Under the pieces are notes generated by a model that worked only from the letters and a program-made list of their open reading frames with translations, was not told where the DNA came from and made no database searches. Shown piece after piece: positions 8,556-54,873 of a stretch of 64,000 bases of DNA (the stretch's first letter is position 1; the number at the start of each line of letters is the position of its first letter). Source of the stretch: Blastocystis hominis (lineage: Eukaryota > Sar > Bigyra > Opalinata > Blastocystidae). The DNA is taken from positions 115,502 to 179,501 of the forward strand of contig NW_013171829.1 in the NCBI RefSeq assembly GCF_000151665.1. The letters are read 5' to 3'. The position numbers were made by a program, and so were the translations under genes.

Positions 8556-8563
8556 AACAAACA
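8556..8563 (-). terminator. Poly(A) octamer of the CDA gene
   Basis: AACAAACA on the plus strand (TGTTTGTT on the minus). The base five positions upstream is T (8568), codon position 1. Confidence 0.85.
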
Positions 8564-8567
8564 CCCA

Positions 8568-9657
8568 AGTTCGCCTTTACTACCACATAAAACACTGGGA
8601 TTTCTCTTCCGATCAATTTCTCCCCCAGTTCTCTCAAAAATCCTTCATAACTCGCTGCTTTTCCATCCATCTCCACCAACAAGATTGCTTCCACACTCTC
8701 AAACTCGATTCCCTTCAATTCGCAATCGATCAACGCCATCTAGCGATCATCCTCTTTCTCTCTTTCTCTACTTGCAACGGATTGATCGTTGGATTATAAG
8801 CCGACGACTCCACACACCCGCCAAATGCGTCCCCTGTTTTCGATAAAATAACCGCGGAACTCGCATGGCCCGAATACCAAGCAAACGATCGTCGCAACAA
8901 GTCCAGCAATCGAGATTCGATTCGGTTCCATCGATCCTCAGTGAGAGAAATCGCGTGCTGTTCGATTTCTGAACGAATTCGGCGAAGATGACTTTGACAA
9001 GGCGTTTCAAATTGATCCAATGGGAATAAGGAAGCGGTTTCGAAGAGATGATGAACGATTCCATCGATCGGAAGCTCGAAACTAGTTGTTAATAAAGTGA
9101 TGTAGAGATAGATGCATACGAATAAGGAAGAAGATCCGAGAGCAGATGATCAACTCCAGCTTTCTGAACGATCACGCGAATATTCTTTGCGTCTGGTAGT
9201 TCTTGCAAAATCTGGCGACAATGTCCACAGGGAACTTCAGAAACTAGGGAAATGAACAAAAGAGGTACAAAAAACACCAGCAAGGATCCGGATCTTTTCA
9301 TTTTGCCCAAAGGCAGTGTGAAGATAAACGTTAGACAAAGTACATTGCTCCGCGTGTACAGTCTATTCAGGATCCATGAGTGAGCGTTCTACTTGGTTCA
9401 TTGCCACATTTTGAAACTCCATGTTTGTTCCCAGAAAGATCCGACCACTCTCTGTATACGCTGCAGCACCAACACGAAACTGGGAAATGGGAACACGCGC
9501 TTTAGGTTTAATCTGCAAAGTTAGAAATAGTCATGGAATGGAAAACGGCCTCAATAAGGAACTGGAGTAATTCTTCAACGGAGACTTGATTCGCCTCAAG
9601 AAAGGCTTCCACTTCCTCCTTCGAGTACATAAACCGAACATCAGAGAGATCAATCAT
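8568..9657 (-). CDS. CDA: Cytidine deaminase, two-domain (E. coli/plant type)
   Basis: The spliced protein begins MIDLSDVRFMYSKEEVEAFL. The catalytic domain has TVHAEQCTLSN (His-Ala-Glu zinc site) and SEVPCGHCRQIL (Pro-Cys-x2-Cys). The second, non-catalytic domain carries GHASSAVILSKTGDAFGG and ESSAYNPTINPLQ, matching the C-terminal domain of E. coli Cdd. It deaminates (deoxy)cytidine to uridine in pyrimidine salvage. Introns of 34, 30, 34, 38 and 32 nt are inferred. No stop codon is encoded at the expected end: after FYVVVKAN the frame reads T|TGGG|TGTTTGTT, so the tail would supply TAA at T8568. Translating through would add only LGVC. The start ATG lies 7 nt past the octamer of the upstream NDC80 gene. 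Confidence 0.88.
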
Positions 9658-9664
9658 GATTCAA

Positions 9665-9672
9665 AACAAACA
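9665..9672 (-). terminator. Poly(A) octamer of the NDC80 gene
   Basis: Minus-strand TGTTTGTT, separated by CCA plus G from T9677. It sits only 7 nt before the ATG of the next same-strand gene (CDA). Confidence 0.85.
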
Positions 9673-9676
9673 TGGC

Positions 9677-11764
9677 AGAAATTTACACTTTGCATCCTCT
9701 CCGCCTCCGTATGCAGCCGCATCACGTCGTTCTACGGTTCTCCGAGCCCCCGTCCATCCTACATCCATCGACTCTTTAAACTTCGAAATCGCGTCAATCA
9801 GCAGCATCACGCGCGTGTGTCGCTTCTGCTCCTCCACCTCGCAGTCCTTTCCGACCGTCACCTTCGTCTGCTGCACTTCGATCCTCCTCCTTCGCAGCGT
9901 TTCCAGCTCGCGTTTTTTCTCTTCCAGCTTCGCTTTTTCCCCCGCCAGCCGCGTCTTCTCCTCCTCCTCCTCCTCTCCTTCCCCCTCCTGCAGCGCACGC
10001 GCCTTCTACAATCCACCCGCGAAGTCGATCGAACCTCCAGCAAATCATCGCGCTGCTTCCGCAGTCGATCGCCCTTTCCCGCCAATCCCGCGCTCTCCTC
10101 CCGCTCTCTCTCCATCCCCGCGGTTTTCTCCTGCACTTTATCCTACGATCGAGATCGCCTGGCAATGGAACCTCGAGCTGCACGATCTGCTCGCGTAGCG
10201 CGACGATTGCGCGCTGTACGCTCCGTCTGTACTCATTTAAGACGCTCTACGATGCCATCGCCGTAATGAAAATCACATCGAGTCGTTCCAGCACGCTATT
10301 GCAAGAAATCTGCTTTTGGTACTGCACTGCATCGCGCGACGACGCAGACCCGCAGTCCTCGACATGTTCTAATCGAATTCGAAAATCGGTTCCGTTGGCC
10401 AGCGGCGCCGTCGCAGGGAAAAGCTGCAGCGCGAGAAGCAGTTCATGATACTGATTTAATTGTGTTTCGATTTGTGTCGCGGTCTCATCAATCGCGCGTA
10501 ACACTATTTCCACCTGACTCTGATAATTGTGTTTTTGTGTTTCAGCCGCGGCAATCTTCGTCCCCCACGCCGCCGAATCTTTTTTTATCTGTTCCACCTG
10601 CTCCTGGCTCAGCTCCTGCCGACTCAGCTGCTCCCGCACTCCCGCGGTTTTTTCGCGGATCTCTCCCAGCGACCGCTCTGTCTGACCCTCCCGCGGTTCT
10701 CCTACCGATCTCGCGGCGTCGCTCGAGGAGCGCGGCGCGCTTGGTGGCCTCGCTTTTATTCTCGCGGGAATCGCCATCGACGATGTGCCGGAATTTCTCG
10801 ACGTCGCGCCGCAGCGTTTTTTCCCGCTCCTGCAGCTAGAGGTGAGGCGATTCCCGCGGGGAGACCTCGGGAATCTCGCGTCCGACGGCCTCGAGCGCGC
10901 GAACTTCGTCGTCGACGTCTTGTTTTTGGTACTCTAATTGAGCGAAACGACCCTCCAGAGAGTCGGTTTCCTTCTCTAGCGAATCGAATAGAAGAATAGA
11001 ATATTATTACGGAGCTCGGCTTTGATGTCGTCGATTACGGAGTCTTTCGAATCATCATCATTGCTCATGAAGAAGCGGTACGCTTGGCACATGTTCGCGT
11101 ACAGCACGCTCTCGCTGGTTTTCTCGCGGTGTTGGCGAGCAGATTGCGTGGCTTCGCTGTACTGAAATTTAAAAAAAAAGAAAAAAAAGGAAACTTCCAC
11201 GATTTGGGTCAGCCAGTTGATAGCTGCGAGGAAGGTCGGAGCGTAGAAGGGAGTGCCCAGACTGTTCATGAAGCTGCGTTTGAACGGGTAGTTGTAGCTG
11301 CGGGTGACGTGACCCCAATCAAAAAGGACCCGAGCATAGACATGATGCGAGGGAAATCGCCTTTCACGTTTTGATCGATTCGCAAGTTCGGATCGATGTG
11401 GCGAAGGATGAAACGAACGATCGACTCAAAATCGGAATCTTTTAGCTGGCGAAGCGTACTGGCGCTCACTTCTTGGTTGTAATTGTGGAATGACAAAAAT
11501 TCGATGATATGCTTTATATTGGAACCCAAGTTCTCTTTATCCAAATTTCGTTGACCATTGAAACCTGCTGGATCAGGAATCGATGTCTTTCTACGAATTA
11601 GGCCCAACAAATTCAAATTCCTACCTTCTCTGCATTGAACCGGCCATCGACATGCGAAGCGATGTACTTGTGTTTTGACCACCATTTGGAGCCATCGATA
11701 CGCGACTTGCCATACTCATCCGTCTTACAGGACTTCGAAGACTCATTCTTCTAGTATCATCCAT
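9677..11764 (-). CDS. NDC80: Kinetochore protein NDC80 (HEC1)
   Basis: A basic Ser/Met/Arg-rich tail (MDDTRRMSLRSPVRR) precedes the calponin-homology domain: IIEFLSFHNYNQEVS, DFESIVRFILRHIDPNL, then NSLGTPFYAPTFLAAINWL. All match the NDC80 family. Long coiled-coil segments rich in E, K and Q follow. NDC80 binds microtubules at the outer kinetochore with NUF2 and SPC24/25. About ten introns of 28-35 nt join the exons; many interrupt coiled coil. The protein ends RMQSVNF where the frame reads T|GCCA|TGTTTGTT, so the stop TAA (or TGA) would be made by polyadenylation at T9677. Encoded read-through would add CHVCFES. The tail Ser/Arg residues would be typical Aurora-kinase targets (family knowledge). 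Confidence 0.85.
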
Positions 11765-11943
11765 CTACATCCAAAATTCCTTATTCAAACCAGCATACGA
11801 TTTCGCAATCACACCAAATTTGGGTGATAATAAAGTAAAGTTAAGCAAAATAGTGCCAATTTTGTTAATTCCACAATTCGATTATATATTCAAAAATTTG
11901 AGTATTTCCTATCATTATTGTCTGTTTTGAAGAGTCAAGGTGA

Positions 11944-14897: not shown

Positions 14898-14905
14898 AAC
14901 AAACA
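14898..14905 (-). terminator. Poly(A) octamer of the PEX4 gene
   Basis: Minus-strand TGTTTGTT, four bases (TAGT) after T14910, and 33 nt before the UBE2K-like ATG. Confidence 0.85.
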
Positions 14906-14909
14906 ACTA

Positions 14910-15424
14910 ACAAAACAGTGTTAGATAACAAAGTCGCCAAGCTATTATATGCGATCTTGTCTCCAGTGCGAATAACATTGGCTATAAAATTATATAAATT
15001 CTTCGCTATTGTCACGTACCTGCATCACAATTCAGCGGGCTTGACGCATCTGGATTGGACAAGAGTACCTGGATGGCTAGACAAACACTCTATTGATCAC
15101 CTCCTCGTATTTTTTTACTTCGAGACTCCATGCAGGGCTCCAATTCGATTTGAGAATATCCAGGCAGACTTCTCCTGTCTTGAAGTGAATGTTGGGGTGG
15201 AAAATTTGAGTGAGGAATTTGGCTTTGGGGGGATGGAAAGGATAATCTTCAGGAATGCGCAGTAATACGTGGAATGTTTTGTTTCGGTACGGACTCTCCT
15301 CAGGTCCTTTGATGAAGCAATCCCACTCGAAGAGAGACAATTCGTTTGGCTTCATTTCAATTCCATTGATTTCGGTGTTTCGAATTCTCTCATACTCCTT
15401 TTGAATGCGTCGTACGTTGCTCAT
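14910..15424 (-). CDS. PEX4: Peroxin-4-type ubiquitin-conjugating enzyme (PEX4/UBC10)
   Basis: The E2 fold starts MSNVRRIQKEYERI. HPNIHFKTGEVCLDILKSNW holds HPN and the catalytic Cys; then SPAWSLE joins, after a 29-nt intron, to SVCLAIQVLLSNPD. The C-terminus SSPLNCDAANVIRTGD matches the PEX4 signature (plant PEX4: SPLNCDSGNLLRSGD). PEX4 mono-ubiquitinates the receptor PEX5 for recycling from peroxisomes. A second intron of 38 nt splits Ala-Ala. The protein would end LLSNTVL by polyadenylation at T14910 (T|TAGT|TGTTTGTT). The family assignment is strong; a peroxisomal role in this organism is inference. Confidence 0.82.
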
Positions 15425-20555: not shown

Positions 20556-20582
20556 GCTTGCTATATTCTTATGTTGATGGCT

Positions 20583-20599
20583 TGTTTGTTTCTCAAACA
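20583..20599. terminator. Facing poly(A) signals, MATE (+) and ADA3-like (-)
   Basis: TGTTTGTT on plus (20583-20590, with T-N4 upstream) faces CTCAAACA (20592-20599), which reads TGTTTGAG on minus. It is the same inverted arrangement as at 14099-14114. Confidence 0.7.
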
Positions 20600-22047
20600 C
20601 TCCAACCATTGTAATGAACCCGCTTATTGGATTCTTCCCATCGTTGCATCACGCGTCGATCCCTCGATTCCAACTCTCTCCTTCTCTTCTCCACTCGCAT
20701 TTGTTCAAAGCACTTCTCCTTAATTCCTCGAAACAAATCCTTTCTCTCCTCTTTCAGCTTTGCGATTTCCATCCACAATTGTGCGCATTCCGCATTCTTC
20801 TTCTCCTCCTCCTCCTCCTTGGGTTGTATATTCATTTCCTCCTCCTTCTTCGGTTGTATATTCGTTTCCTCCTCCTCCTCTTCTTCTTCTTCTTCTTCTT
20901 CTTCAGTATCATCGCGAAGTAATCCCAACTTGGCCAATTCTTCCATCAAAAACGGCTCCACTGCCTTCGATTGCGCGCGATTTTTCTCTTCCTCCACTCT
21001 CCACATCGCGTCCTTCTCCCACTCACCCTCCAATCCACTCACTCCCATTTCCACAGGATTCGACAGAGGCACGAGACACGACAGCAGTCGATCGACCACC
21101 GTTTCATTTGTCGAATTCGGTAAAGAATTGCTGAGGGAATCAAGTTGGAGATCGGAGCCAACCATCAATTCGATGTGTGATGGCGTCAATGGTTTGAAAT
21201 AAAGCGACACCTCGTTCCACAACGTTGAGCAATTCTCGATGACGAGAGGGGAAATGGGGATCAGCGAACGGCTCGCTATTTGCACCGGCTTCGCCGAAGA
21301 ACTCGTGGAAACGATGGGGGTAATGGCGTTGCGAGTACGCCCTCGCTCTACACATCAGCGTGGGCAATCGATCAGAAAAGTACTGCGGATCGCTATGGGC
21401 TTCTCAGGTGGTTGAGAAGGACCCGCGTTTGAGTTTGAAACGGAATCATCGTCCGATGAATTCGCTAGGAAGCTATCTCTTCTGATGATTTGGAAAGAGA
21501 TGCGGTTTGTTTGAGGAAATGTGGATGGAGAAAGGTCATAGAGCTTGCACTGCGGGATTACAAAAGATTCACAAGCATTACAGAGTCCGCGATCTTGTTG
21601 AGTCTGTTCAAGTCCTTTGTATCGCGCTGTTTGCGCAACTTCAACTGCTCCTCAAACTCTTGAAACACGTCCAAGTTGTTTTTCAGCCGCTCTTTCCTCA
21701 ATTTTATATCACTTATAAAATTCTGCACGTTATTTCGTTCTAAAAATTCAAACGCTGAGGAATAGACGCGCTTGCTTGTAACTGGACACATCTCCTTTAT
21801 TTTTTATTTTGGCAAGTTCCCTCAGACCCACAAAATACCCCACATTCGGAGGGACGAGCGGAAGGATCTTTTCTAGCGGAAATCGCTTGTCCCCTTTCTT
21901 TTTCTTCCCCTTTCCCTTCTTTTCATCGTTTGGACTTTCCATCCAATCCTGAAAAACAAGATTTTTAGAATTCCACAATTCATGCCTATTTCGTAGAAAG
22001 CAACACTCTCCTCTTACCCTCCTTTCTGGATGCCTAGAAAAAGTCAT
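20593..22047 (-). CDS. ADA3/NGG1-like SAGA adaptor protein (tentative)
   Basis: Introns of 32, 28, 32 and 36 nt link a lysine-rich start (KKGKGKKKKGDKRFPLEK), ILPLVPPNVGYFVGLREL, a charged coiled coil (DIKLRKERLKNNLDVFQEF), a Ser-rich linker and the final large exon. That exon has STLWNEVSLYFKPLTPSHIE, PFLMEELAKLGLL, a Glu run and a C-terminal coiled coil. ADA3 proteins share the 'EELxxLGLL... coiled coil' ending, but similarity is modest. ADA3 bridges GCN5 to ADA2 in histone acetyltransferase complexes. The end is ambiguous: encoded TGA at 20593-20595, or a tail-made stop at T20604 (T|GGAG|TGTTTGAG). The first ATG overlaps the divergent RPC1 start; a later Met (about 21940) would avoid this. 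Confidence 0.45.
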
Positions 22048-25000: not shown

Positions 25001-26829
25001 AGTCTCAACGCGGTAGTTTCCACGTTTCTACGTTTAGAATAGAGCTTCATGGAGGCGAATAACGGTCCGGTGGACTTCGAGCGCACGTGGTCCGTCGTGC
25101 AGCTTCTCTACCCCCACGCGCAGCACGTGCAGAATTCGGTGAAGAATTCGGTGCAGAATTCTGAAACGAACTCATCGAATTCTGAAACGAGTCCATCAAA
25201 TTCTGAAACGAACTCGTCGAATTCTTCGTCGAATTCTTCGTCGAATTCCGCGTCGAACGACGAGGATTCGGTGCTGCTGCCGTGCGACATTCTGGAAGTG
25301 GCCGAGACCCTGCTGAACCACCCGCGGTTTTTATCGATGTGCGGCGGCAGCGTGCACGGGCAGAAGTTCCTCGACGAGATCGCGCAGTTCTGCCGCACCA
25401 TCGCGGCGCGCGCGTCGCTGGAGCGCGTGCTGCTGGGTCTGGACGATGGGTACCACTACCTGGGCAACGCCCCGTCGGCTCGGCGGTTCCCGATCGACCG
25501 CGCGCCGCTGTCCATGCGGCGGTCGAAGCAGCTGGCGTTCTGCCACGTGACGCGGCGGCAGCTGTCGCACTTCTTCGACGTGGTGTACGCGAAGTACCGC
25601 CGGTCGATCGTGGAGCCCGGCGAGGCGGTAGGCGCGATCTCCGGACAGTCTTTCGGCGAGCCGGCGACGCAGATGACGCTGAAGACGTTCCACTTCGCGG
25701 GCGTGGCGTCGATGGACATCACGCAGGGAGTGCCGCGTATCAAAGAGATCATCAACGCGGTGCCGTCGATCTCCACGCCCATCATCACCGTGGAGCTGCT
25801 GAACAACCAGGACGAGATCAGCGCGCGCGTCTGCAAGGGCCGCTTGGAGCGCACGCTGCTCGGCGAGGTCGCCGCGTTCATCAAGGAGGTCTACACGCCC
25901 GAGATGTGCTTCCTCGACGTCCAGCTCGACATGGAGGCCATCCACAAGCTCTATCTTCCCGTACTCTCTCTTCTCTCCGCCTTCTCTCTCTCTAGATCAC
26001 GCCCGACTCCGTCCGCAGAGCCATCATTCAGAGCAAACTCAAGCTCAAACTCAAAGACGAGCACGTGACCATCAGCGGAAAATCAGGACTCCGCATTATC
26101 CCGCCGCCCCCCGTGATTACCGCCGCCAAACGTTTCGACCCTGCCTCTCTTTCACTCGCAGCCAACCGGAACCGCGGGGACGACCAGTATTTCACGCTGC
26201 AGCGGCTGAAGGAGATGCTTCCCGCGGTTATCGTGAACGGAATTCCGACGGTGCATCGCGCGGTGCTGAACAAGGTGGAGAAGCCGACGGCGCACATGAA
26301 TTTGCTGATCGACGGCACGGGATTGCTGCAAGTGATGGGGACTGTGGGAGTGGACCACACGAAGACGGTGACGAATCATGTACTCGAGATTAACAGCGTG
26401 CTGGGAATCGAGGCGGCGCGCACGGTACTGATTCAGGAAGTGTCGAACACGTGAGATTGATCGGGTTTTGCGAGTGTAGATATGGGTCGTACGGATTGTC
26501 GATCGACATTCGCCATCAGATGCTGCTGGCGGATTGCATGACGTAGGAGAGCGGAAAGAGGGTGAATGGCAGGTTTAAAGGACAAGTGCTGGGAATGACG
26601 CGGTTCGGAATCGAGAAGATGAAGGAGTCGGTGATGACGCTGGCGTCTTTCGAGAAAACGGCGGATCATTTGTTTGACGCTGCGTTGCACGGACGCAGAG
26701 ATAATATTATCGGCGTGAGCGATCGCGTGATTATGGGAATTCCGATTCTCGTGGGCACTGGCGTCTTTTCGATCATCTACAAACCTACAAACTATGGAGT
26801 GGTGCCTCCGATGAAAAAAACGTATCTTT
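22030..26829 (+). CDS. RPC1: RNA polymerase III largest subunit RPC1
   Basis: Thirteen exons (introns 28-40 nt) code for about 1,460 residues. In order: the zinc-binding clamp [20 protein letters not shown] and KCGRCLLS...[29 protein letters not shown]; the catalytic loop [16 protein letters not shown]; and the trigger-loop region [20 protein letters not shown]. The C-terminus [20 protein letters not shown] matches POLR3A, not RPB1 or RPA1 (no CTD heptads). The enzyme makes tRNA and 5S rRNA. A Ser/Asn/Glu-rich insert (25133-25263) is extra. No stop is encoded: the frame reaches KKTYL then T|GCGC|TGTTTGTT, so TAA forms at T26829. Read-through would run into the next gene's leader. Confidence 0.95.
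25133..25263 (+). repeat. Coding minisatellite in RPC1 (Asn-Ser/Glu-Thr rich)
   Basis: Repeated GAATTCTGAAACGAACTCGT-like units code for a run of N, S, E and T about 40 residues long, ahead of the C-terminal catalytic region. It is absent from RPC1 of other lineages as far as I know. Confidence 0.8.
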
Positions 26830-26833
26830 GCGC

Positions 26834-26841
26834 TGTTTGTT
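26834..26841 (+). terminator. Poly(A) octamer of RPC1
   Basis: TGTTTGTT, four bases (GCGC) after T26829, and 14 nt before the ferredoxin ATG. Confidence 0.88.
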
Positions 26842-26855
26842 CCAAACTTTTTCTC

Positions 26856-27349
26856 ATGCTCTCCTCTACCGGAAGACTTCTCTCCCGCGTGTCCCAAGTC
26901 CTGGCTCCCGCCTTCACTCGCTCCGTTTCGGGTTGAATTGCACGCTCGTTTTCATCATGTAGTGTCGTTTCGGATTAAGTCCTTCGTCGATGAATTCACT
27001 ACCGAAGAGGTGGATGTAGAAGCGGAGGAAGGACGTACCATCCTTGATGTGGCTCAGGAGTACGGCGCAAGCATTAACTGTACGTGATTTGGAGCTTTGC
27101 TGTGATGTTTCAGCCTTCTGTGGCGGCAATTGTCATTGTGGAGGGTGCCATATCAAGCTCGCGCAGGCAGTATCGGACTTACTGCCGAGACCTAGTGAGA
27201 AGGAGGCCGAAGTACTGAAGAAATGCGTCGACGTGGATGAAAGGTAAGGTCGAATTTGTGGCTCAATGCGCAGCTCTCGCCTCGCTTGCCAGACGAAGGT
27301 GAACAAATGTATGGAAGGAAGGGTGATCATTGTTCCTTTGGCCATTTGA
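26856..27349 (+). CDS. Mitochondrial-type 2Fe-2S ferredoxin (adrenodoxin/Yah1)
   Basis: Begins with an Arg/Ser-rich, acid-free presequence ([20 protein letters not shown]). The ferredoxin core has [17 protein letters not shown], then [15 protein letters not shown] (Cys-x5-Cys-x2-Cys), and the fourth cluster Cys in RLACQTK. Introns of 31, 34 and 30 nt separate the presequence, the core and the fourth-Cys exon. It donates electrons in Fe-S cluster assembly inside the mitochondrion-related organelle (family knowledge). The frame ends PLAI TGA; this TGA (27347-27349) begins with the very T that lies four bases before TGTTTGTT, so polyadenylation would turn TGA into TAA. Confidence 0.92.
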
Positions 27350-27351
27350 AT

Positions 27352-27359
27352 TGTTTGTT
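27352..27359 (+). terminator. Poly(A) octamer of the ferredoxin gene
   Basis: TGTTTGTT with GAAT between it and T27347, the first base of the encoded TGA. Confidence 0.85.
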
Positions 27360-29490: not shown

Positions 29491-29498
29491 AACAAACA
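29491..29498 (-). terminator. Poly(A) octamer of the ARMC1-like gene
   Basis: Minus-strand TGTTTGTT, four bases (GGCG) after T29503. Confidence 0.85.
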
Positions 29499-29502
29499 CG
29501 CC

Positions 29503-30437
29503 ACCACCAGCTCAGCACGCTTCGCACGCTCGACAGCAGCCAGTTCGCGCGCCGATCCTTCCGCTCCTTCTTCGCCTTCGCCAGCCGCTTCGCCTCCAGT
29601 TTGCTCTCGATCGACGCGAACCCGTACGTCGCCAGCGCGTCCCGACCCGGCTCCGCGGGGTTGTATAAATCGTCCACGAAGCCGTCGTCCGCCTCGATCA
29701 GCGTCGAAGTCGCGTCATCCTCCTGGAAGAGATTGCTGCAATCACAGGGCACGGACAACTCTACCAGAGCGAAGTGTGGATCATTTCCTTGCGAGACTCG
29801 CCTTTGATTTCGCGCACGTTCACGATTACGCTCTTGTTCACCTTGTCGAACGTAATCGACACCACGCCTTCGATACCCAAAATGGTTCGCTGAATATTCT
29901 CACACACCACCGGATCGTCGATTCCGATGATCTAGCCTCTTACTATCAAGACCAGAACCTACATCGTAGCGGTAATACCTGTTTTCGGTTCTCTTTTGAT
30001 TGTACAAGTCGATATGCACACGACTCATCGCTTGCTGGTTCAAACTCACTTTAAAGTACTTTTTCACGTTTGTAAAGATCTCCGACACGTAACTCTTCTC
30101 CTTCTCACCTCCACTGTGTTCTAGACGTGTCTAGCATTTATGCACTCTCAATCAATGTACTAGAGCCGCAGTCAACTTGTCATTATCGGCTAGTGTCCGT
30201 TTAAAATGGTTATTGCGCGAAATATATACGAGAATAGACAATGCATCCATCCGAATGCTACTATCATCCATTCCAAGAGCAAGTATTATATTATCCATAA
30301 AATCTATGCTCATTAGTCGTTCGACACATATTCGTACAAGGCATATTCATTAGACTCTCATGATAGTCACAATCCGCTGCTAAGAGAACCAATGAGTGAA
30401 TCGTGCTATTGATATTCACAATATCGTCATCATCCAT
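29503..30437 (-). CDS. ARMC1: ARMC1-like protein (armadillo plus HMA-like domain)
   Basis: The N-terminal armadillo-like stretch is LVLLAADCDYHESLM, then ILALGMDDSSIRMDALSILV and YISRNN. It is followed by an HMA-like fold (IIGIDDPVVCENIQRTILGI, VVSITFDKVNKSVIVNV) and a charged helix with the tail WLLSSVRSVLSWW. Human ARMC1 has the same order and ends FLSRSFYW; it associates with the mitochondrial MIB/MICOS machinery and DNAJC11. Introns of about 34, 40, 29, 31 and 29 nt are inferred; the small 12-nt exon (NTVE) is the least certain. No encoded stop after WW: the frame reads T|GGCG|TGTTTGTT, giving TAA at T29503. Read-through would add WRVC. Confidence 0.7.
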
Positions 30438-32143: not shown

Positions 32144-32173
32144 ACAGATAGATTGGTGAAACAAGATTTCGAT

Positions 32174-32181
32174 TGTTTGTT
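32174..32181 (+). terminator. Poly(A) octamer of RPS13
   Basis: TGTTTGTT with T-CGAT just upstream, about 30 nt after the encoded TAA. Confidence 0.75.
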
Positions 32182-33373: not shown

Positions 33374-33381
33374 AACAAACA
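33374..33381 (-). terminator. Poly(A) octamer of the CEPT gene
   Basis: Minus-strand TGTTTGTT, four bases (GCAT) after T33386. Confidence 0.88.
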
Positions 33382-33385
33382 ATGC

Positions 33386-34609
33386 ACTCAATCTTCTTCG
33401 TAACGTGGAATACACGGATTCCCAAGCGGCGCTTAATCTGATCCACCGTCACAAACAAGAAGACGATGTAATAGAACATGAAAAATCCGAAGCATGCAAA
33501 CAACATCGCCGATTCGTTGATGAGTCCAATGAAGTGGTTCAACGTAAGCAAAATCAGCGAATACATCGGCGAGAAGTGATAGCCGAGTCGTCGTCTGCAC
33601 AGGTGCGCTAAATTCACTCGAATGGACAGGAACGAATAGGTCAGTCCACAGAAAACTACAAAAAACCGCGGAAACACAGCCTACGCAGCAGATAAATGGG
33701 ATGTTCCGCCGTGAGGGACGATGTGAGCATCACGTAGGTGCAAACCGAAATGGTTCTACGCGTCAACCCTCATCCAAAGAGGCACAGAGAGGGAATTAAG
33801 CGGCTGAGATAGGACAGTCTGTCCATGTTTTTGTTTCCACGTTTCTCCATTGGGATGGGGCAGGCGCGCACGAAGTAGATGAGCAAGTAGAAGAAGCAGA
33901 TGGATCCGACGAGAGTGAGGAGGCAGATGTCAAGGAAGCGAGGGATTTGAAGGGAAGAAACAAATCGCTCGAGGAAGGGGAGATACGGCACAACATCGAT
34001 GCTCCAGGCTTTGGATCCCTTCAGGCCGGTAAGCAGAAGGAATGCAGAAACCAGAATCATGGTCTCAGTCACACCAAAGAACTTGCTGCCCGCAAGGAGA
34101 ATGTTGCTTTGGTACTCAACGAGCTGTGCGCAGACAAATACAGAGTACAAAACTGACAGAGTGAGGGCGGTTAGTGGGCCAACTCCAAAACCTGCGGCGG
34201 AGCAACTGCAGATGATGATGAACAGAAGGTTCACAGCATCACAGCCATGGTCGAAAATCTGGCCCAAAGGAGAAGAGGCACTCAAACGACGAGCTTGCTT
34301 TCCATCGGCTGCATCAAGCACAGCATACACTTGGAGACAGATTGCAGCGTTGATGTAGACCCATCCAGGAGCATTTCCAAGGAGATAGGGATCGTACAGC
34401 AACACCAGCATAGCCGCAGATATATTAACAATCAAACCAGTGAGAGTGATCAAATTTGGAGCAAACCACGCTGGAAAAGCGTAGGCTACTTTGTACCAAA
34501 AGGGATTCAGCAGATTATCCACAAAGGTGTATTCTCCTCCATGATACTCATAATTTTCCAAGTTGGTGAGATCCTCTTTCGTGAGGAACGTTATTTGCTG
34601 TTGGTTCAT
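33386..34609 (-). CDS. Choline/ethanolamine phosphotransferase (CDP-alcohol type)
   Basis: Exon 1 holds the CDP-alcohol phosphotransferase motif DGKQARRLSASSPLGQIFDH plus GCD (DG-x2-AR-x8-G-x3-D-x3-D) and seven or more hydrophobic helices. Introns of 30 and 29 nt lead to further membrane segments (FGFFMFYYIVFLFVTV). The enzyme joins CDP-choline or CDP-ethanolamine to diacylglycerol in the ER, the last step of the Kennedy pathway; the substrate cannot be told from sequence. The protein ends VFHVTKKIE because the frame reads T|GCAT|TGTTTGTT. The last four residues KKIE fit the KKxx ER-retrieval signal. If ribosomes instead used the encoded TAG, the tail would be CIVCW and the signal would be lost. 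Confidence 0.88.
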
Positions 34610-44200: not shown

Positions 44201-45447
44201 CAATCATCGCATCCCGACACCCAGGCCGTCGTGGCCATCACCCACCTCGACAGTTTCCGCTTCGTTCGAGACGAAAAACCGCGGGGAGCCGGCTATCCGA
44301 ACGCAGCGAAACTCCCCGAAGAGGGCGAAGAAAGCCGCCAACTCGTCTTCTCCAGCGACGCTGCCGTCCTCGTCGACCGCGAAAGTTTCCCCGTTTCCCC
44401 TTTTCGACGTGTAGAAAGCCTACTTCTGTCCGTTTCGTCGAAGCCAACCCGCCAATTTGTCTTCGTGCGGGTGACGGTTTCTCCGTTTACGGTAACGTTT
44501 TCTTCGCCTCTGCGCGTGCACAACGCGACGTCCGTGCCGCTCACGCTTCTGCTGACGCGCGAAGACGAGCCGAACGACGCGTCGAAGAAAACGGAGGAGC
44601 TTCGCGTGGAGCCGTTCTCTCTGCAGCCGCTCCCCTTCCATTTCTCGCTCGGATTCTTCGCGTTGCAGCTGAAGCCCGAGTCGTTCAGCTTCTCCAATCC
44701 TCTTCGGAACACCGACATCGCCAGCGATCACCCCAGAACCATCTCCTGCTCGCCTATCGCCGTGCTGCCCACGCTCTCCGTCGCCACGTCCTGGAACACG
44801 CACATCCGAGTCGGCATTTCTTGACAACGCGATGAGACGCAGAGCGTTCGCCCCGCCGCTGAAGAGCTTCTCAAAACCATCGGGAAAGCGTGGAAACCGA
44901 ATCTCCGCGAGATTCAGTCGAAGCTGGTGACGTTCAAAATCGAGCCCATCATCACGCTGACGAACTCGATTCAGTTCCCTCTGAACTACACGCTGCACGA
45001 TCTCTCCGCTGCGATTGTGGCGTGCGGCGTGGTGCCGGCGATGCGCACCGCGCAGCTGCACTCCTGCAGCAGCGAAATGGACGTGTATTTCCTGCAGGTC
45101 TCGCTATGGGGCTTCGAATACTCGCAGGGGATCGAGATCACGTCGAACCAGGAGGGAACGCAGCGCGTGCAGCTGAAAAAACGCGAGGGATCGATCGAGT
45201 TGGTTTCGCTCGAGGTTCTGATTTCGAACCTGTCCATCACCGTCCAAGCTCCCTTCCAAATCATCAACAAAACGCCCTTCTCGCTCTATGTTGTGATTGT
45301 GTGTCTGTGTTCCACGTCTAGTATCTCCAGTCGGGAGTTTCATTGCGTCTGGCACCGTATCATCCGCCCGACGACCAATCCTTTGTCCCCTTTGCCCCAA
45401 TCCACTTCCCTTCGGCCCCTTCGGCCCCTTCTTCTAATCTTGACCCC

Positions 45448-45478
<31 letters not shown>

Positions 45479-48400
45479 CTTCTTCTTCTCCTTCCATTCA
45501 TCCCTTCTTCCCTTCTCCTTCTTCTCCTTCTTCTCCTCCCTCTACGCCTTCGCTTCTTTCTGCGCGATCGTCCCGCTCGATTTCCAAATCCTTCAAAGAA
45601 TACACGCCGCACTTCCAATCCCTCCTCTCCTCCCTCGAGCGACAGATGAACGTTCTCGCCTCCTCCAATCTCCTTCGCTCGTCGATGCATTCCACTCCGT
45701 ACCACTTCAATTGCTGGGTCAGTCTGCCCACCAATCAGAAGGAGAACATTTGCATTCAAGCTTCTTCCGACTTCACCTTCGAAACGCTCTTCGTCACCGT
45801 CATGCACACCCTCTTCCCCAACGAAACTCCCTCCCCGGAACACTATTACTTCCTCAACCTCCGGCCGGAGAAGGTTCTCCGCATCGAGATGGGGGAATTC
45901 GTGGAAACCTTCGCGGACAACCCGTGGTTTTTGCTCCGGCATCGCGAGCACGGCTTGCAAGGCGCCGTCATCAACGACACCGTCAGTTTGGAGCGTTTGG
46001 ACCAGAGTTTCCTCCGCAGCACCAACGAAACCGCCGCAGAACCGCGGGACATCGGTCTGTTCGCGGAGTCTCAGCTGAGTTCGCTGCGGATCACCGCGCA
46101 GGACTCGGTGATCGAGGGCAGCGCGTCGATCGAAGATCTTTTGCAGGACGACGACGTGAAGGAAATGAAGGTGCGTCTCCCCGCGATTAGTGCGTTTGGA
46201 TTCGTTTCTTGAGTGTAGTGGCGGTGGAAAACGCGCTGCAGTCGGTCGTTTTCCCGCTCTCCATTTCGGTTCAGCGCTTCGATTCCACGCGCGTCGTCGT
46301 GATTTCGCCGCAGCACGTGGTTCAAAACAACTCCGAGTTCGATCTGCTTCTCAAAACCCCCACGTTCTATCGAATTCCAGCGAAGAAACTCTCCGTTTTG
46401 TGCCTCCAGGACGAATCGTCGATCGACTCGCTTCGCATCAAACGCGACCGCGCCGACTGGGAGTTTTCGGGGGAGTTTCCCTTCTCCACAGAAAAGAAAC
46501 TCCTCGTGAAGTCGGTCCACACAAAAACCCGCCAAATTCTGGCATTCGAGATCGTGTCGTTGCGCACGGAGTTCTACAATGTCCTCACCATCACCTCCAC
46601 AACCCACGTTTCCCCCATCCTCATCTCCAATTATTGCCCGTTTCCCACGGTTATCAGCCAGATCGGCTCCGCCACGCATCACGTGATCCCCGCGTTTTCG
46701 CAGCTCGCTTGGATCCGCGAGGAACCCTGCGGAAATCCCGCGATTCAGATCGATATGAAGGGCGTTCGCGGCATTGTCTCCGCGGATGTTCGGCTCGGCG
46801 AGGCCGCCAAAATGCGAATCCCAACCGCGGTTCCCGCCAAAGAGGAGTTTCAACTCGAGGCCGACGTGTACGTCCGGTCCCGCGGGAAATGGAAGGCGCG
46901 GCGCGCTCGGCTGGGCGACCACGCGCTGTTCCTGTTCACCACGCCGAATCTCACGAAGCTGGTGCGTCGTGGGCATTCCTCGCTCTCTCTGGCGCTTCCT
47001 CTCAGCGGTGTTCGGGTTTTGTACCATCCCTCGCGGTCCCAGCAGTCGCCCTCGCTGCGAAATCGCGTGCTGTCGCAGGCCTCCGCGCTGAAAAGCGCGC
47101 TGCAATCCACCTTCACGCTGCACCAGCTGCAGCAGCAGATCGGAGCGACGTTTCCTCAGGCGGACGTGACGCAGCTGGTCCAGGACCTGAGTGTGATCGG
47201 CATGTTATACAAACTCCCGCAGGGCGTGTCCACGCCGATGGGTCTGCAGCAGGAGCCGCTGTACGCGTTCCGAACGCATCCGATCGCTCCGAATTGCTGC
47301 GTGATTTTGGAACTGCCCTCCACTCGCATCGAGTTGTTCTTCGCTTCCGCGGGAATCGCAGAGGAATGGGCGAAGAAAGTCCGCTTCGAGGCGGAAACCG
47401 CGCCGCCGCTGAGCGGCTCGAATTCGCTGGCGATTCGCACGCGGAATACGGAGATCCGCGATGTGAACGGTAGTTTCTTCGGTGTTCCAATTCTGTTTTA
47501 GTGTTCATCCAATCATCGCTGAAGGGACTCACCCCCGTTCTCTCCATTTTCCCCGCGGATCTCCCCGCTGCGGCCGCTCCCGCGGTTTTCTCGCTCTTCC
47601 AGAACATCCAAATGACGGTCGACGTGTATCTCGCGGGAATCGGCCTCAGTCTCCTCGACGAAACGCCCGAAGAAATGGTCTACGTGTGGTTGGACGAAGG
47701 CACAGCGAGCGTTTTGATCCGAGACGAAGTGCAGAACGTGATTCTCAACCTCAAAAACCTCCAAATCGACGTCAGTTCCTACAACGCGACCTTCCCCGCG
47801 CTTCTCTACACGCTTCCGCAGGCCGTCGATCATCGCCCCGCCTCCCTCGCGCTCCCGCCATCCCCGTCTTCGCCCTCCGACCCGCGGTTCTCCGCGAAAT
47901 CGGCCCAGTCGAACGTGGATTTCGCGGGATTGGGCGCGTCTTCGATGCAGTCGCGCAGCCAAATCCTCCACAATCTCTCCAAGCAGGAGAAGGAAACCGC
48001 GGAACTCGTGCAGACGGCGGAGCAGTTAGAGAAGGAGAGCAGCAACGTCTGCACGGCGTGCGGGTTTGTGTTCCTCGGCGACAAACGGCCGTTTCTGCAC
48101 CTCTGCTGCAAGCGGCACGCGAACCAGCAGAACTGTTTCTACATGGATCGCGGCCTCGTGTCCTTCGAGAAGATCGTTCTGAAGGTGGACGAGCAGTTCG
48201 TACGGCGACTCAACACGAAGTTCGGGCGGTTTTTCGTGGGAATCGAAGCGAATTGTGAGAGATAGAAAATGGGCGCCATGGAGGAAGCGGCGATGAGTAG
48301 AAAATCGGGGAATGCGCAGCTGGTGGAGCTGCAGAATCGGAACATTTACGATGTCAAAATGATTCAGACGCTGCTCGACGCGTTTTCGAAGCCGTCGTTT

Positions 48401-50531
48401 TTCATCGGGTTCTTCTCGCTGCAGCCGGTGAACGTGATTTTCACGCTGAAATCGTCGCTGGGGTTCGAGGAGAGCGAGTCGAACGATGGGAATCAGATCG
48501 CAGATCATTGGGTGAGTTGCGACAACACGGTGATTCAGCTCAAACAGATGACAATCGAGAACGTGAAGGGCGGTTATTACGAGGTTTATCTCACGATCCG
48601 CAGCTATCTCGTGCTCGAGCTCCTCAAACAAATGTTTTCTCCCTTCTCCTCTTTGTCTGACGCACAGTCGAACCATTCTCTCCTCCGTCGACATGCTCGG
48701 AAACCTCCAGTACTTCCGCAGCGAGAAAGAAAGCAACATCCCCAATCTCAACTATCTCGAGGACTCCATCAACTCCATCCTCTCCTTCTCTCTTTCCTCC
48801 CAACTCTCTTCCTCCCTTCCCGTCTATTTCACAAACGATATCTACAATCCATTCGCCGATCGACCTTCGTTCTCTCTACCCACCATCGCTCCGCCAAAAC
48901 GCTCCGTTTCCTCCAAAGTCGGCAAAGCCATCGGCAAAACCATCGACGGCGTCGCCCACGTGAGCTCCAAAGTCGCGGTTATTCCCTCCTTCTGACGGAT
49001 AGTTCACCAATGGACTGGCTTCCGGACTCACCACGCTCATCGCCGACGATCAGTTCGCTTTGCAACGCTCCATTCGCATGAATCGTGGAAACTCAAAGCT
49101 CTTCGTTCGAAGTTTCCACTTTTCCACGGTTGACTCATTCCACAGGCGTCAAATCGGGAACCAAAGCGATGGGTTCCTCGATCTGGTCGGGGATCAAAGG
49201 CGTCGTGACCACGCCGATAAACGACGTTCGCACCAAGGGAGCGCGAGGCTACGTCACCGTACGGTTTCCACGTTTCCCCAATCGTAGGGCCCGGTGAAAG
49301 GAATCGTCGGGTTGGCGTTAAAGCCGGTTGTGGGAGTGCTGGACTTGCTGAGCCAGTCGACAAACGGCGTGAAGAACAGCACGCAGAAGGTTTTCAAGCT
49401 TCGCGAATTCATCGATCCGAAAGTAGCGATGTTCGATCGAATTCGAAGCAGGTGATGATGTTCTCGCGCGCTCGTCCGCCTCGAACGATCGGCGAAAACG
49501 GGCAGATCACGGATTACAACGAGGTGGACGCGATTGGCCGGCTGTTATTGTTTGTTAGCGGGTCGACCCGCGGGGATGAGGCGTGTTTGCTGCTGAGCAA
49601 CGCCACGACGAAGGGAGGGACGTCGATCCTGTTAATGCTAACAGACAAGCGAGTTTTGGTGTTTAGCAGCGCGGACGTGATCAATATGGTTCTCATCTTT
49701 GAGGTTTGGATTCGTTTGGATTGAAATGAATAGTCTTCGTTGACCAGTGTGGAGTTCGTCGAAGCCAGAGACGATTTGTTAGCCATTCACTTAACCAAAC
49801 CCATCAGCATCGCCTACTTTACGCCCTCCGTCTACCGCCGAATCGACGAGCAGATCGATTTCCCGCGGTTTTCTCCCACATTCGCCTCCCAATTCCTGGC
49901 GTTGATGAAGCAAATCATGCCATCGGTGGACTGCTTCTCCCAGTTCCCCTACGCGATCGACATCCCCTCCTTCGTTTCGCTCTGCCGCATGCGCTGCGGC
50001 AAACTGAACGGCTGGAAGCGTCGCTACATCGCCATCTCGCGCAACTGTCTTTATTACTTCCACAGCATCGACGGACTCTCCGAGAAGGAGCGAAACGAAG
50101 TCGTGCTGCAGCTGCCGACGGGGGTTGTGCCGCTCACGCGGCTCGCAACGTCGACGCGGATGGTTTGAATGGCGAGGAGGAATGAGGAGAAGGTGGCGGG
50201 GAAGCTGTTTACGGTGGAGTTGTTCCATGAGGATAACTCGGATGTGCCGTATTTGCGATTGCTGAGCTCGGAGAAGGTGATTCGGAGGACAAAACATCGG
50301 TTTTGTTTTACGTTTGGTCGGGGTTGGAGGAGCGATTGATGGGTAGAAGTGGAGGAGGAAGCGGCGTTTTTCGTGGAGTGCGTGGGAGAACATTTAGCGG
50401 AAGTGAATCCGTGCGAGCCGCTGAATACGTATGAAGTGGAGTACGATATTCGAAGTCTGCGCGAGTTGCGATTGTTTACGAGGAAAGTGAGCGAGATTTT
50501 ACCGACGATTCGGAAAGAAAAGGGGAAATAG
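38252..50531 (+). CDS. VPS13-type bridge-like lipid-transfer protein, membrane-anchored
   Basis: About 25-30 introns of 27-43 nt join exons into some 3,700 residues. An N-terminal hydrophobic helix (ISILVSIILLYALHKLL) precedes long β-rich groove repeats. The C-terminal third has the VPS13 hallmark ISLIDxTPEE as LAGIGLSLLDETPEEMVYVW, then IRTILSSVDMLGN and glycine-rich segments such as GVVTTPINDVRTKGARGY. A cysteine-rich finger (CARCGWTHEPGLRCSDCW), a PH domain near 46.9-47.4 kb (KWKARRARLGDHALFLF) and a C-terminal PH domain (GWKRRYIAISRNCLYYF) are inserted or appended. VPS13 proteins carry lipids at membrane contact sites. All apparent in-frame stops fall in removable introns. Several coding microsatellites (Ser, Asn-Glu-Leu) occur. 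The stop TAG is encoded. Confidence 0.8.
43300..43402 (+). repeat. Coding minisatellite (NELNPM repeats) in the VPS13-type gene
   Basis: AATGAATTGAATCCA-type 15- to 18-bp units repeated about six times, coding for Asn/Glu/Leu/Met. Confidence 0.85.
45447..45490 (+). repeat. (TCT)n poly-serine microsatellite
   Basis: About 13 TCT triplets in the VPS13-type gene coding for a serine run after LDPTS. Confidence 0.9.
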
Positions 50532-50544
50532 ATATGAGTTGGAG

Positions 50545-50552
50545 TGTTTGTT
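50545..50552 (+). terminator. Poly(A) octamer of the VPS13-type gene
   Basis: TGTTTGTT with T-GGAG upstream, 13 nt after the encoded TAG. Confidence 0.75.
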
Positions 50553-50769
50553 AGAGAAGAAATGGAATGAGTGTGTGTGTTTGCTTTCAAACAAAGTGGA
50601 TTGAAAAACGGATGGAACTGAATATTTTAAGATTCCCATATTTTGATGAGAATTAGTATTGTGAATGATACACAACTTACGTTTGCGTGTTTTCTCTATT
50701 CTCTATTTTTATATTTATTCTCCGACATTTCCTTCACTCCCAAATCATTCTCTCCCCTTTTCGATTCTC

Positions 50770-50777
50770 TAACAAAC
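50770..50777 (-). terminator. Poly(A) octamer of the second glycosyltransferase gene
   Basis: Minus-strand TGTTTGTT with T-GGGG upstream, about 30 nt after the encoded stop. Confidence 0.75.
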
Positions 50778-50808
50778 ACCCCAACACAATCACGCACTCG
50801 TTCACCAC

Positions 50809-52296
50809 TCACTTCTTCATCAGCCGCTCCTTCATCCTCTCTCTCCGACTCCTACACGCATCGGGCAAGCAATCCTGATGGAACATCGTGTACGTCTTAT
50901 ACCATCCCTGGCAGCACTGCGGAATCTTCGCACTATGCACCAACGCCGTCAAAATCGCCTGGTCCTGCCGATGATTCTTCCGCGTGCTTCCAATCGGAGA
51001 GATGCATCTGCGCGTGTAGGCGCACTGAACCAGCGGGAAGATCACATTGTTCATCACCGTCTCGTTATTGTAGTTAATCCACAAATAGCCGCCTGTGCAC
51101 ATCCCTTTCCCCAGCATAATCTTCCGAATCATCTTATTGGCTCCCAAAAAGCGCTGCGATTTCCCGTGCAACCACTGCTGCAAACTGTCTCCCGAATACG
51201 GCGTGTACAACCCGAACATATGAACACGATACATTTCATTCTTCAGATTCGTGGAGACAATATTCCCTCCATCGGACCACGACACGATCCGCTTCGTTTC
51301 CATCAACACATCGAAATAAGAGATCACTTTCCACGAGTATCCGCCTCGAACCTGTCGATCCGACAAATCAAACCACGCAGGGAAGTGCGCAAAGTCGAAC
51401 TTGCGATAGTACAGCAGCGCTGTGGAATGGTGCGCGTCCAGAATGGTCTTCATCACCTTCATTTCGCTGATTAACTCGCTCAGCGTGACGTTGTCCAGTC
51501 CGTAATCCACAAACACGATCGACGAGTTCATATCGCTCGTAATGATCGAATACATCGTGTTGATGTTCGAGTAGAGATGATTCGCCGAGCTTCCTGTCAC
51601 GTAAATATGGTCGGAGTTTCTGAAAGCGTCTTCAGTCACGCCGCCAAGGCGGACGAAGGAAGGAAATCGAGCGTCTGGCTGCCCGAAGTTCTCATATCGA
51701 AGGTCGATGTGGTTGTAGAGAGAGTTGAAGGGGATGGGATAAATGATGTCATCGTAATCGTATTCTAGATTAATAAAGAGTTATTGGAAATTACGGTTGG
51801 TGGGTTGGGTTCCGAAATCCTTTAATGTATACTGACTGCTTGATATGGAGATGTTCGGGTTTGGAACGTAGGGACTCGGATAAAAGGGAAGGTGGGAAAA
51901 ATGATTTGTCTCGGTCGAATTGCCTTTCTGCTTGGATTTCCCTTTTGAAGGTGATTCAGCAGTCGCAAACCTAGGTTTATCTGTTTTGACACTATCTTGT
52001 TTACTCTTGAAAAAAGTAGCTGCGGTTTGTAACAGGGAATCTACGGTCGATGCAAATTAAAAGTAAAAACTGGAACCTGCGGCGTTAAGAAGGGAATTGG
52101 AAATTTTAGATTTGGCTGTTCTCCTACATTCAAAGAATTCCAAGAAACCCTACTTCTTTGGTTCGTTCTCTGCTCGCATCACTCCGCAAGTATAGGAACG
52201 CGCACTAAAATCACCACTGTCATCCAAAATTGGAGGTGTCAACAACACAACACAACAAAATACCCAGAGTGCTATAATAAAAGGAGATATATTCAT
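50809..52296 (-). CDS. Type II membrane glycosyltransferase-like protein
   Basis: An N-terminal anchor (MNISPFIIALWVFCCVVLL) and a basic, Ser-rich stem are followed by the large catalytic exon. Motifs: SSIVFVDYGLDNVTLSELI, YSWKVISYFDVLME, VSWSDGGNIV (a possible metal- or sugar-binding acidic site), MCTGGYLWINYN, and RQDQAILTALVHS. The pattern 'KPxxIxxxL...vxWxDxG' followed by QDQ..L is typical of eukaryotic nucleotide-sugar transferases of the poorly studied DUF1647-like group. Introns of 30, 36 and 30 nt lie in the stem-coding part. A Golgi location is likely. Donor and acceptor are unknown. The stop TGA is encoded. Confidence 0.6.
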
Positions 52297-52516
52297 GCTG
52301 ATCCAGAAAAAGAAGTTCTTCTCAGCACAATAAAAGTAAAAGAAAGGGGTGATAAAACGGATTTGTGTCATATTACCATTGTTTTTTCTCCTCTCCAATA
52401 ACGATTTAATCTTATGAACCCGTCTTTAGCGGGACAAGATCCATAAACCCGAACAGCCCGCCGTTGCTCGGTCACACTACCATGCACAAAATTCCCCTCC
52501 CACGCATTCTATTTCC

Positions 52517-52524
52517 AACAAACA
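52517..52524 (-). terminator. Poly(A) octamer of RPL17
   Basis: Minus-strand TGTTTGTT with T-GGAT upstream, about 45 nt after the encoded TAA. Confidence 0.75.
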
Positions 52525-52571
52525 ATCCATCACCAATCAACCAACCATCTCACTGCTGTAACAATACAAAC

Positions 52572-53385
52572 TTAGGCCTGCTCCTCCTTCTTCTTCTCAG
52601 CCAGTTTCTGGTGAACGAGCTTTCTGTACGCCAGCTGTCTGCGAGTGAGACGCTTGTGCGTGGGCTTCTACACCATGACACTACGCCTCCACACTTACCG
52701 AAGAAGCCTTCTTCACCGCAGAATCCTCCTCGGTGCACATCATCTCAATGTGAGCAGGGTGGCGGAGATAGGCTGCACATTACCAACAAAACCAACTGCC
52801 TACGGCACACACGTCCGTGAGCGCGGTAGGTGCGACGACGCATCACGGGAGCCTGGTTCACCTGCACATGGCTGATACGAAGGTTCTCCACGTTCAGACC
52901 CTTCGCCTCACCGTTGGCCTTCAGGTTGTTCAGAAGCACCAGGAAGAACTTGCAGGCAGCCTTGGGCCATCTGCACTGATCTCCAGGAGCCTTGATGGAG
53001 TGAGCCTGGGCGTGACGACCAACACCGCCGTTGAAGCGGGTGAAGGCGACAGCCTGCTTGTGGGCAATCACATCGTTAAGGTATTTCTCGGCCTTGAGCA
53101 GAGACATGTCCTTGATGGCAGCACCCACCTCGTGAGCGTTCTTGAAGTGCACAGTCAAGTAAGAACCGCGGGCCTTGCAGCCTACACATAAGAAACAAGA
53201 ATTACAGGGGAATACTCTTCTTGGTATCAGCAGGAGTCATACTATAGAACAGGTTAGTGATAATCACATTTCAGCCAGAAAAACACAACGAGCACACAAC
53301 AAAATGAACAATGGACAAGAATTGTCAAACACCACACCAAAATGATCCCAAGGCACATTCATGATACTTACCTATATCTCACCAT
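52572..53385 (-). CDS. RPL17: 60S ribosomal protein L17 (uL22)
   Basis: Exon 1 is only 14 nt (MVRY plus AG). After a 130-nt intron come MTPADTKK, then a 34-nt intron and [19 protein letters not shown]. The core continues [40 protein letters not shown] and [17 protein letters not shown], and the tail [15 protein letters not shown] ends KKKEEQA and TAA. Introns of 38 and 31 nt interrupt the last third. The sequence matches eukaryotic L17 from end to end, and the exit-tunnel loop region is intact. Confidence 0.95.
53242..53371 (-). other. Unusually long (130-nt) first intron of RPL17
   Basis: GTAAGT start and CTATAG end, four times the local intron length, GT-rich. It contains CTGA and near-box-C strings, so a hosted snoRNA is possible, but no complete C/D or H/ACA architecture was recognised. 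Confidence 0.6.
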
Positions 53386-53716
53386 TTGAAAATGTAAAAA
53401 TCAAGTAGGCTGATTAATCCGAATTGGATTAAAGTCGATGAGAGACTAAGGCGATGCCCGCGGTTATTTCTTTATGAAGTCCCAGTTGTACAGGCATTTA
53501 TAGTTATCATACATTTCTTGAACAAAACAAAATACGATGAAATACGATGCTGATATTCATTAGGAATATACTAGTACATGGGTAGTGGAATAGGATAGAA
53601 AGAGCAGGGGTGTTCGATGCCTGATGATCACGAAACAAAAGTACTGAACTGCTTGTAAATATCTGATCACATCGGGGAAAACAAATCTTGATGTAATTGT
53701 TAATCAAATAAACAAA
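53386..53716. other. Intergenic spacer between RPL17 and OST3/6 starts
   Basis: About 330 bp shared upstream region of two divergent genes. No frame, repeat or RNA recognised. Confidence 0.5.
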
Positions 53717-54861
53717 TGTCTTTTCTTCTTAGTTTTGTATTCCTATATTTATTAGCAGTTGCGAAGGTACTCTATCGCTTACCTGCGTTTGAGAACTGTA
53801 GGGTGACTATCAGGAGATGCATACTTTGACACGCAGTTCAGTAGCGCTCTTAGATGACAAGCTGTTTGAAGAATATATTTCAAATCGAACTCGGGACTTT
53901 GACACCTTGTTACTTTTCTCATACGTGTCGAATGATTCTCTATGTCCTACATGCTCGTACAATGTTCTAGTAATGAATAACATAATAGAAAGTCGAATGA
54001 CGCTTTTTTGCACGCACACAGAGCTTGGGAATCAGAAAACATCGATTCACCAAAACTAATCTTTGCAGTCATCGAAATGGATTCAAATCCCAAATTGGCG
54101 GATGTGTTTGAACTGAATTCCTTTCCTTCGCTTGTCTATCTCTCCGAGTATCACAGCATATCTAGAGTATGAATTTAAACTTGCTCTCTATGCAGATTCT
54201 CCCCTTCGAAAGTGATTCCATGGTGTTAGAAGGAAACGGGGGTATTCTTTCAGAAGAGCGAATTCTTCAGTTTATAAAGCAATGTACAGGCGTTCATGTA
54301 GTTTCTCTTCACTCCCTTTCCATAGATCACACTTCAACAGAGCAGTTATTTAGGCTTGTATTTTATCCTCCTTTTCTCCGTAATCGTCATTGCATTCGGC
54401 TATAACTACTTATTCAACAACGATTTCCTCTTGGATTTTCTGGGAGGAAAAGACCGCGCGCTCTCTATCTGCCATTTTGTGTTTGTTCTACAATGCCTCA
54501 CTCAGCATAAGCTTGATCATGATTGTTTCGGGCATTATGTACGATTTCCTTCGAGGTCCTCCCTTCTTAATTGCGAATCCGAAAGGGGGAATCAGTTTGT
54601 TTTCGAGGCGAGGCGCTACGATCTGCGAGGGTTTGATATTCGGCGTGCTAGGTCGAAGAAACGTGAAGGAATGAACTGTAGTTTTTGTGACGGAATCACA
54701 TTTGCTGAAGCTGCTAAATATTGATACATCGAAGGAGGAGGAGGAAGTTTCGGATGAGATTATGATCGATCTGGCTTTCTGTGCAGGAGCGGTTGTGCTA
54801 ATCACTTTATTGTTTGCATTCAAAATGCCCTGGTACTTTAAAATCGCCCGCCAAATGTTTT
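53717..54861 (+). CDS. OST3: Oligosaccharyltransferase subunit OST3/OST6 (TUSC3/MAGT1)
   Basis: Signal peptide MSFLLSFVFLYLLAVAK; a lumenal thioredoxin-like domain with LCPTCSKSN (CxxC redox motif), LIFAVIEMD and ELNSFPSLVYLSE. Four membrane helices follow, including LYFILLFSVIVIAFGYN, MIVSGIMYDFLRGPPF (compare SGxMwnhIRGPP) and DLAFCAGAVVLITLLFAF. The subunit forms transient disulfides with substrates during N-glycosylation in the ER. Introns of 35, 32, 29, 34, 25 and 30 nt are inferred. The end is MPWYFKIARQMF with no encoded stop: T|TGAG|TGTTTGTT makes TAA at T54861 (read-through would add LSVC). A second TGTTTGTT at 54480-54487 straddles the fifth 5' splice site. Confidence 0.85.
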
Positions 54862-54865
54862 TGAG

Positions 54866-54873
54866 TGTTTGTT
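54866..54873 (+). terminator. Poly(A) octamer of OST3/6
   Basis: TGTTTGTT, four bases (TGAG) after T54861. Confidence 0.88.

Follow-up and report, generated by a model that had tools for sequence, protein, structure and literature searches.

Nine genes in the window, the whole 64,000-nucleotide stretch of DNA from the gut protist Blastocystis analysed here, end in an arrangement that is best explained by the known 3'-end signal of this organism, in which an octamer sets cleavage four bases upstream and the poly(A) tail completes a UAA stop codon. A probability of about 0.93 was assigned to this reading. The gene ends carry the geometry, and long reading frames entering such sites favour the corresponding phase. 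The octamer, the spacing and the poly(A)-made stops are established in Blastocystis by EST data, and the ends of the nine genes appear to fit them; we infer that cleavage falls at the T given for each gene below. In the pre-mRNA, UGUUUGUU would be the downstream element that positions cleavage four bases upstream, and a short CstF64-like protein may recognise it. Where a T at codon position 1 occupies that place, the first two A residues of the tail would complete UAA (T|AA), and an encoded stop would be dispensable.

The main elements of this arrangement, namely poly(A)-made stops, the octamer, the four-base spacing (2014) and U at the attachment base, were already known, and the window looks like an ordinary example of them. 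The initial annotation had claimed that Blastocystis completes some stop codons by polyadenylation and that the octamer lies at a fixed spacing. Both claims are borne out by the ST7 ESTs reported by Klimes et al. 2014 (PMC4159000), in which the octamer, with at most two substitutions, was placed exactly four bases downstream in 2,333 of 2,419 genes. The same report gives poly(A)-made stops in 372 ST7 genes, 90 genes in which an encoded UAG or UGA is turned into UAA, and the idea that 3' UTRs could retreat into the stop codon because cleavage is precise. In ST1, poly(A)-made stops were reported for 1,693 genes (26%) by Gentekaki et al. 2017 (PMC5608401), expression of a luciferase reporter with the legumain 3' UTR was reported to be down 324-fold with the octamer and two upstream T residues mutated together (PMC6395660), and poly(A)-made stops have been raised again in connection with annotation (PMC9896827). 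In the present case such stops were recovered from raw sequence alone, which matters for correct gene models.

The octamer TGTTTGTT was found in 24 exact copies in the window, 12 per strand, which is far above its chance frequency (mean of 2.45 and maximum of 6 in 100 shuffles preserving dinucleotide content). The 18.71 Mb genome sequence (40 contigs) contains 7,304 copies, overlapping ones included, and 6,732 (3,329 + 3,403) have been published for ST7 (PMC5608401). The bases around the octamer were counted genome-wide with simple TGTT repeats included, and also in a local set. This set combined the window with 200 kb of C1 and with sixty 1-kb pieces taken around plus-strand octamers of C1, and gave 152 usable sites, reduced to 143 when repeat-like ones were dropped.

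At all nine gene ends named in the initial annotation, an octamer is located four bases past the stop-completing base. Eight of these are exact copies of TGTTTGTT, each with a T exactly five bases before it, as had been claimed, and the ninth, in the ADA3-like gene, is TGTTTGAG, a variant with two substitutions that follows its T (T20604) at the same distance. On the forward strand lie the ends of RNA polymerase III RPC1 (26829..26841; T26829), a 2Fe-2S ferredoxin (27347..27359; T27347) and an OST3/6-like gene (54861..54873; T54861). The ends on the reverse strand are those of cytidine deaminase (CDA; 8556..8568; T8568), an NDC80-like gene (9665..9677; T9677), a ubiquitin-conjugating enzyme that is a putative PEX4 (14898..14910; T14910), the putative ADA3-like gene (20592..20604), a putative ARMC1-like gene (29491..29503; T29503) and a choline/ethanolaminephosphotransferase (CEPT; 33374..33386; T33386). 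The frame leading to the T is open for 57 codons in CDA, 94 in RPC1, 98 in CEPT and 132 in the ARMC1-like gene. Gene models were built with a simple intron-skipping script, and several frames rest on inferred introns.

A Pfam search with the nine proteins, partly trimmed, supports the cytidine deaminase, the ubiquitin-conjugating enzyme (UQ_con, 125 bits, residues 6-126 of 145 in the putative PEX4), RPC1 (RNA polymerase Rpb1 domain 5), the 2Fe-2S ferredoxin and CEPT (CDP-alcohol phosphotransferase). The matches to OST3_OST6 in the OST3/6-like protein (25.4 bits, residues 2-96 of 104) and to NDC80_loop in the NDC80-like protein (21.1 bits) are under the cut-off of 27, and the ADA3-like and ARMC1-like models matched no family. 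In four of the nine, the alignment with solved homologues extends almost to the proposed protein end: human RPC1 (7a6h) aligns up to query residue 350 of 363, two ferredoxin homologues up to residues 129 and 131 of 132, 6l08 up to residue 261 of 277 in the cytidine deaminase, and 8gyw up to residue 383 of 388 in CEPT. As these alignments come close to the query ends, they place the T at or near the natural protein end in those four genes and support the frame used there.

The codon containing the T is without an encoded stop at eight of the nine sites. The exception is ferredoxin, which had been listed among the stop-less genes; its geometry at T27347 stands, but an in-frame TGA is encoded at 27347-27349, and the gene would be a case of TGA becoming TAA on cleavage, like the published UGA/UAG to UAA conversions in Blastocystis (PMC4159000), and not a stop-less one. 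For NDC80, the T and octamer are arranged as had been stated, but the frame is uncertain. With T at codon position 1 it extends upstream without a stop for no more than 18 codons and requires an inferred 31-base intron, and the longest open frame into the site, of 109 codons, puts the T at codon position 2.

Phase was assessed with frames of at least 80 codons running into a site, which were present at 39 of the 143 non-repeat local sites. With cleavage after the base five upstream of the octamer (-5), 18 of the 39 gain UAA, all through a T at codon position 1 (T|AA), and a TGA is already encoded there in three of these cases. The remaining 21 make no stop (six at position 1 without T, seven at position 2 and eight at position 3). 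No TA|A or TG|A ends with cleavage at -5 were found among the 18 stop-making frames, a small number; TA at -6,-5 is present at 11 of the 143 sites and TG at seven. Long frames at T sites are distributed over codon positions 1, 2 and 3 as 18, 6 and 4 (n=28), 10 of the 28 being at position 2 or 3, and those at non-T sites as 6, 1 and 4 (n=11). As position 1 is the commonest at non-T sites too, some of the phase excess has nothing to do with stops. When the class of sites with an encoded stop, defined below, was set apart, the counts at T sites were 17, 6 and 2 (p = 4e-4).

Assuming cleavage at -14 to -6 or at -3 to -1 gave stops in 2 to 12 of 37-41 frames, and at -4 in 17 of 39. The -4 position is nearly as good as -5 because a T followed by G can yield TG|A, likewise a stop. 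Taken by themselves, the letters point to cleavage at -5 or -4, and ESTs place it four bases ahead of the octamer; the stops made in this way number 359 UAA and 13 UGA (PMC4159000).

These counts bear on the alternative that each gene does encode a normal stop, which would be met after an unrecognised intron or on reading through the site, and that the octamers are unrelated to stop formation. With frames of 60 codons or more, there are 23 apparent T|AA sites; 19 of them are indeed followed by an in-frame stop within 4 to 51 codons, the other four carry an encoded TGA at the site, and the dependence of several window frames on inferred introns also leaves room for it. However, the octamer excess (24 against 2.45), the phase counts (18 of 39 frames, and 17, 6 and 2 at T sites), the homologues that align nearly up to the T in four genes and the published EST evidence from Blastocystis (PMC4159000) all argue against encoded stops, making this alternative very improbable. 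For stops completed by the tail, a backup stop made in frame from the last T of the octamer and the next two bases was also considered, and was rejected as it was present in 6 of 23 T|AA genes and 25 of 120 others, no clear excess.

A T at the same spot had also been claimed for most other octamers, and the position -5 is T in 16 of the 24 in the window. The eight others, which went unmentioned, have C, G or A there (9422, 27565, 40864 and 49549 on the forward strand; 59938, 38642, 32267 and 14114 on the reverse strand). A counter-example with A at the cleavage position is found at 59931..59943 on the reverse strand, 14 bases past the encoded TAA of a 1,347-codon frame. Among the further T positions given, 2652, 20578, 32169, 50540 and 52529 are correct, and 50782 is a G with the T at 50783. 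On the forward strand, the site at 2652..2664 is located 44 bases past the encoded TGA of a 157-codon frame and that at 20578..20590 is 23 bases past the encoded TAA of a 545-codon frame; on the reverse strand, the site at 50771..50783 (T50783) is 26 bases past the encoded TGA of a 323-codon frame. Upstream of the sites at 32169..32181 and 50540..50552 (forward strand) or 52517..52529 (reverse strand), the analysis found no long frame that ends in an encoded stop.

Since stop-making genes have the T by definition, they cannot alone show that T is preferred. Genome-wide, T is found at -5 of 4,298 of the 7,304 octamers (58.8%), compared with 3,329 (45.6%) at -6 and 1,948 of 5,456 (35.7%) at -5 of the reversed octamer used as a control. 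In the local set, T at -5 was found at 90 of 143 sites (63%), whereas T averages 38% over positions -15 to -6 (p = 2e-9), and five control octamers had T at -5 in 32-54% (19-64 sites each, with repeats kept in). A separate class was formed by 32 sites that follow, within 60 bases, what appears to be the encoded stop of a frame 80 or more codons long. This class has T at -5 in 21 of 32 and G at -4 in 19 of 32 (T at -5 in 15 of 24 for frames of at least 120 codons), and is impure in that it includes antisense frames such as the 633-codon frame before the 22576 octamer, which is antisense to RPC1. T is thus frequent even at sites that, having an encoded stop, do not need it, and a preference for T at sites behind an apparent encoded stop is supported.

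The initial annotation had attributed the T to the cleavage machinery and had predicted that such a bias would predispose genes to lose encoded stops. The preference itself is supported by the 21 of 32 sites behind apparent encoded stops and had already been published (PMC4360255), and we infer that it stems from the machinery. It could instead be that the stops are made by polyadenylation and the T bias comes from T-rich surroundings or from descent from former stop codons, which we consider possible but the less probable origin. The surroundings are indeed rich in T (38% at -15 to -6, and 45.6% at -6 genome-wide), T at -9 equals T at -5 in frequency in the encoded-stop class (0.66 for both), and among the five control octamers one reaches 54% T at -5. 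Against this, T at -5 exceeds its neighbours in the 143 local sites by the margin given above, and goes with G at -4 and a downstream A-rich stretch, and mapped tail-attachment positions in B. hominis mRNAs are reported to be most often U, with G next in frequency (PMC4360255).

The signal seems to be wider than the octamer. In the local set, the base at -4 is G in 70 and A in 13 of the 143 sites, and T is found just before the octamer (-1) in 77. T at -5 is accompanied by G at -4 (57 of 90, against 13 of 53 at non-T sites; p = 1e-5) and by at least three A in +10 to +15 (68 of 90 against 22 of 53; p = 7e-5), and no clear association was found between G at -4 and the A-rich stretch at these sites (50 of 70 against 40 of 73; p = 0.056). 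Counting from the octamer start, A makes up 41-52% at +10 to +15, compared with 26-38% behind 178 control sites. Genome-wide, G is present at -4 of 2,290 octamers and TG at -5,-4 of 1,573, and TGTTTGTTNNAAA was found 908 times among the 7,304 octamers, 600 of the 908 having T at -5. The four bases between cleavage and octamer are called non-conserved in PMC4159000, and the A-rich stretch does not figure in the descriptions of the signal in PMC4159000 and PMC4360255. The G mostly found after the T, the T often found before the octamer and the A-rich stretch downstream are small additions of the present analysis; the same octamer, four-base spacing and T completed to UAA characterise the published poly(A)-made termination codons (PMC4159000, PMC5608401), from which there is no essential difference.

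The predicted predisposition to stop loss is plausible but unproven, and its effect would be modest. Given T, TA and TG at 90, 11 and 7 of 143 sites, a random frame gains a stop with a probability of ~0.25, compared with 0.14 from base composition alone (28% T, 28% A and 22% G). This arithmetic from base frequencies gives an estimate of ~1.8-fold and does not show cause. A bolder version, offered tentatively, is that cleavage prefers U, usually then G, in an extended signal U|GNNU-UGUUUGUU-NN-A-rich and that this acts as a mutational ratchet driving loss of encoded stops. As T|AA and TG|A are both stops, a stop would be made even if cleavage slipped by one base, and a TG-type site would be a pre-built stop in one of three frames, so that upstream encoded stops could be lost cheaply. 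Among the papers listed by searches of the open-access literature, none beyond those cited here was recognised as linking T preference to stop loss or as describing the mechanism in relatives. If the U preference does favour stop loss, a comparison of subtypes could reveal drift into 3'-end dependence for translation termination.

To our knowledge, no such downstream octamer is known for mitochondrial mRNAs with a tail-completed UAA. In these the completion is the same, but they are organellar whereas the genes examined here are nuclear (PMC4159000). The B. hominis mRNAs of PMC4360255 have UGUUUGUU four bases downstream of the attachment base, which is mainly U, as here. However, the base after attachment is given there as A in 30% and G in 35%, differing from the 13 A and 70 G among 143 sites found here, and the EST mapping rule may account for this discrepancy. 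Monocercomonoides exilis was considered as a parallel and set aside, as the signals described for it are canonical.

Candidate components of the machinery were also sought. Suf-family matches, which we take to represent the CstF77 family, are present in the genome, and an exon-by-exon search for CFIm25 (PF13869) gave no match at E 0.001. A CSTF2-hinge match was found at C1:100012-100170 within a 141-codon open frame, whose length comes near the 142 residues reported for the short CSTF2 of ST7 (PMC4159000).

Only 27 bases separate the cleavage T of RPC1 (26829) from the first ATG of the ferredoxin model (26856), which must place the promoter or 5' end of one gene inside or next to the 3' signal of the other. 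Another pair of gene ends faces one another at 20578-20604, where the forward-strand octamer (20583-20590) and the reverse-strand variant (20592-20599) stand back-to-back. Many long overlapping open frames are present on both strands at 38900-49100; this segment probably contains at least one large coding region accompanied by long antisense frames.
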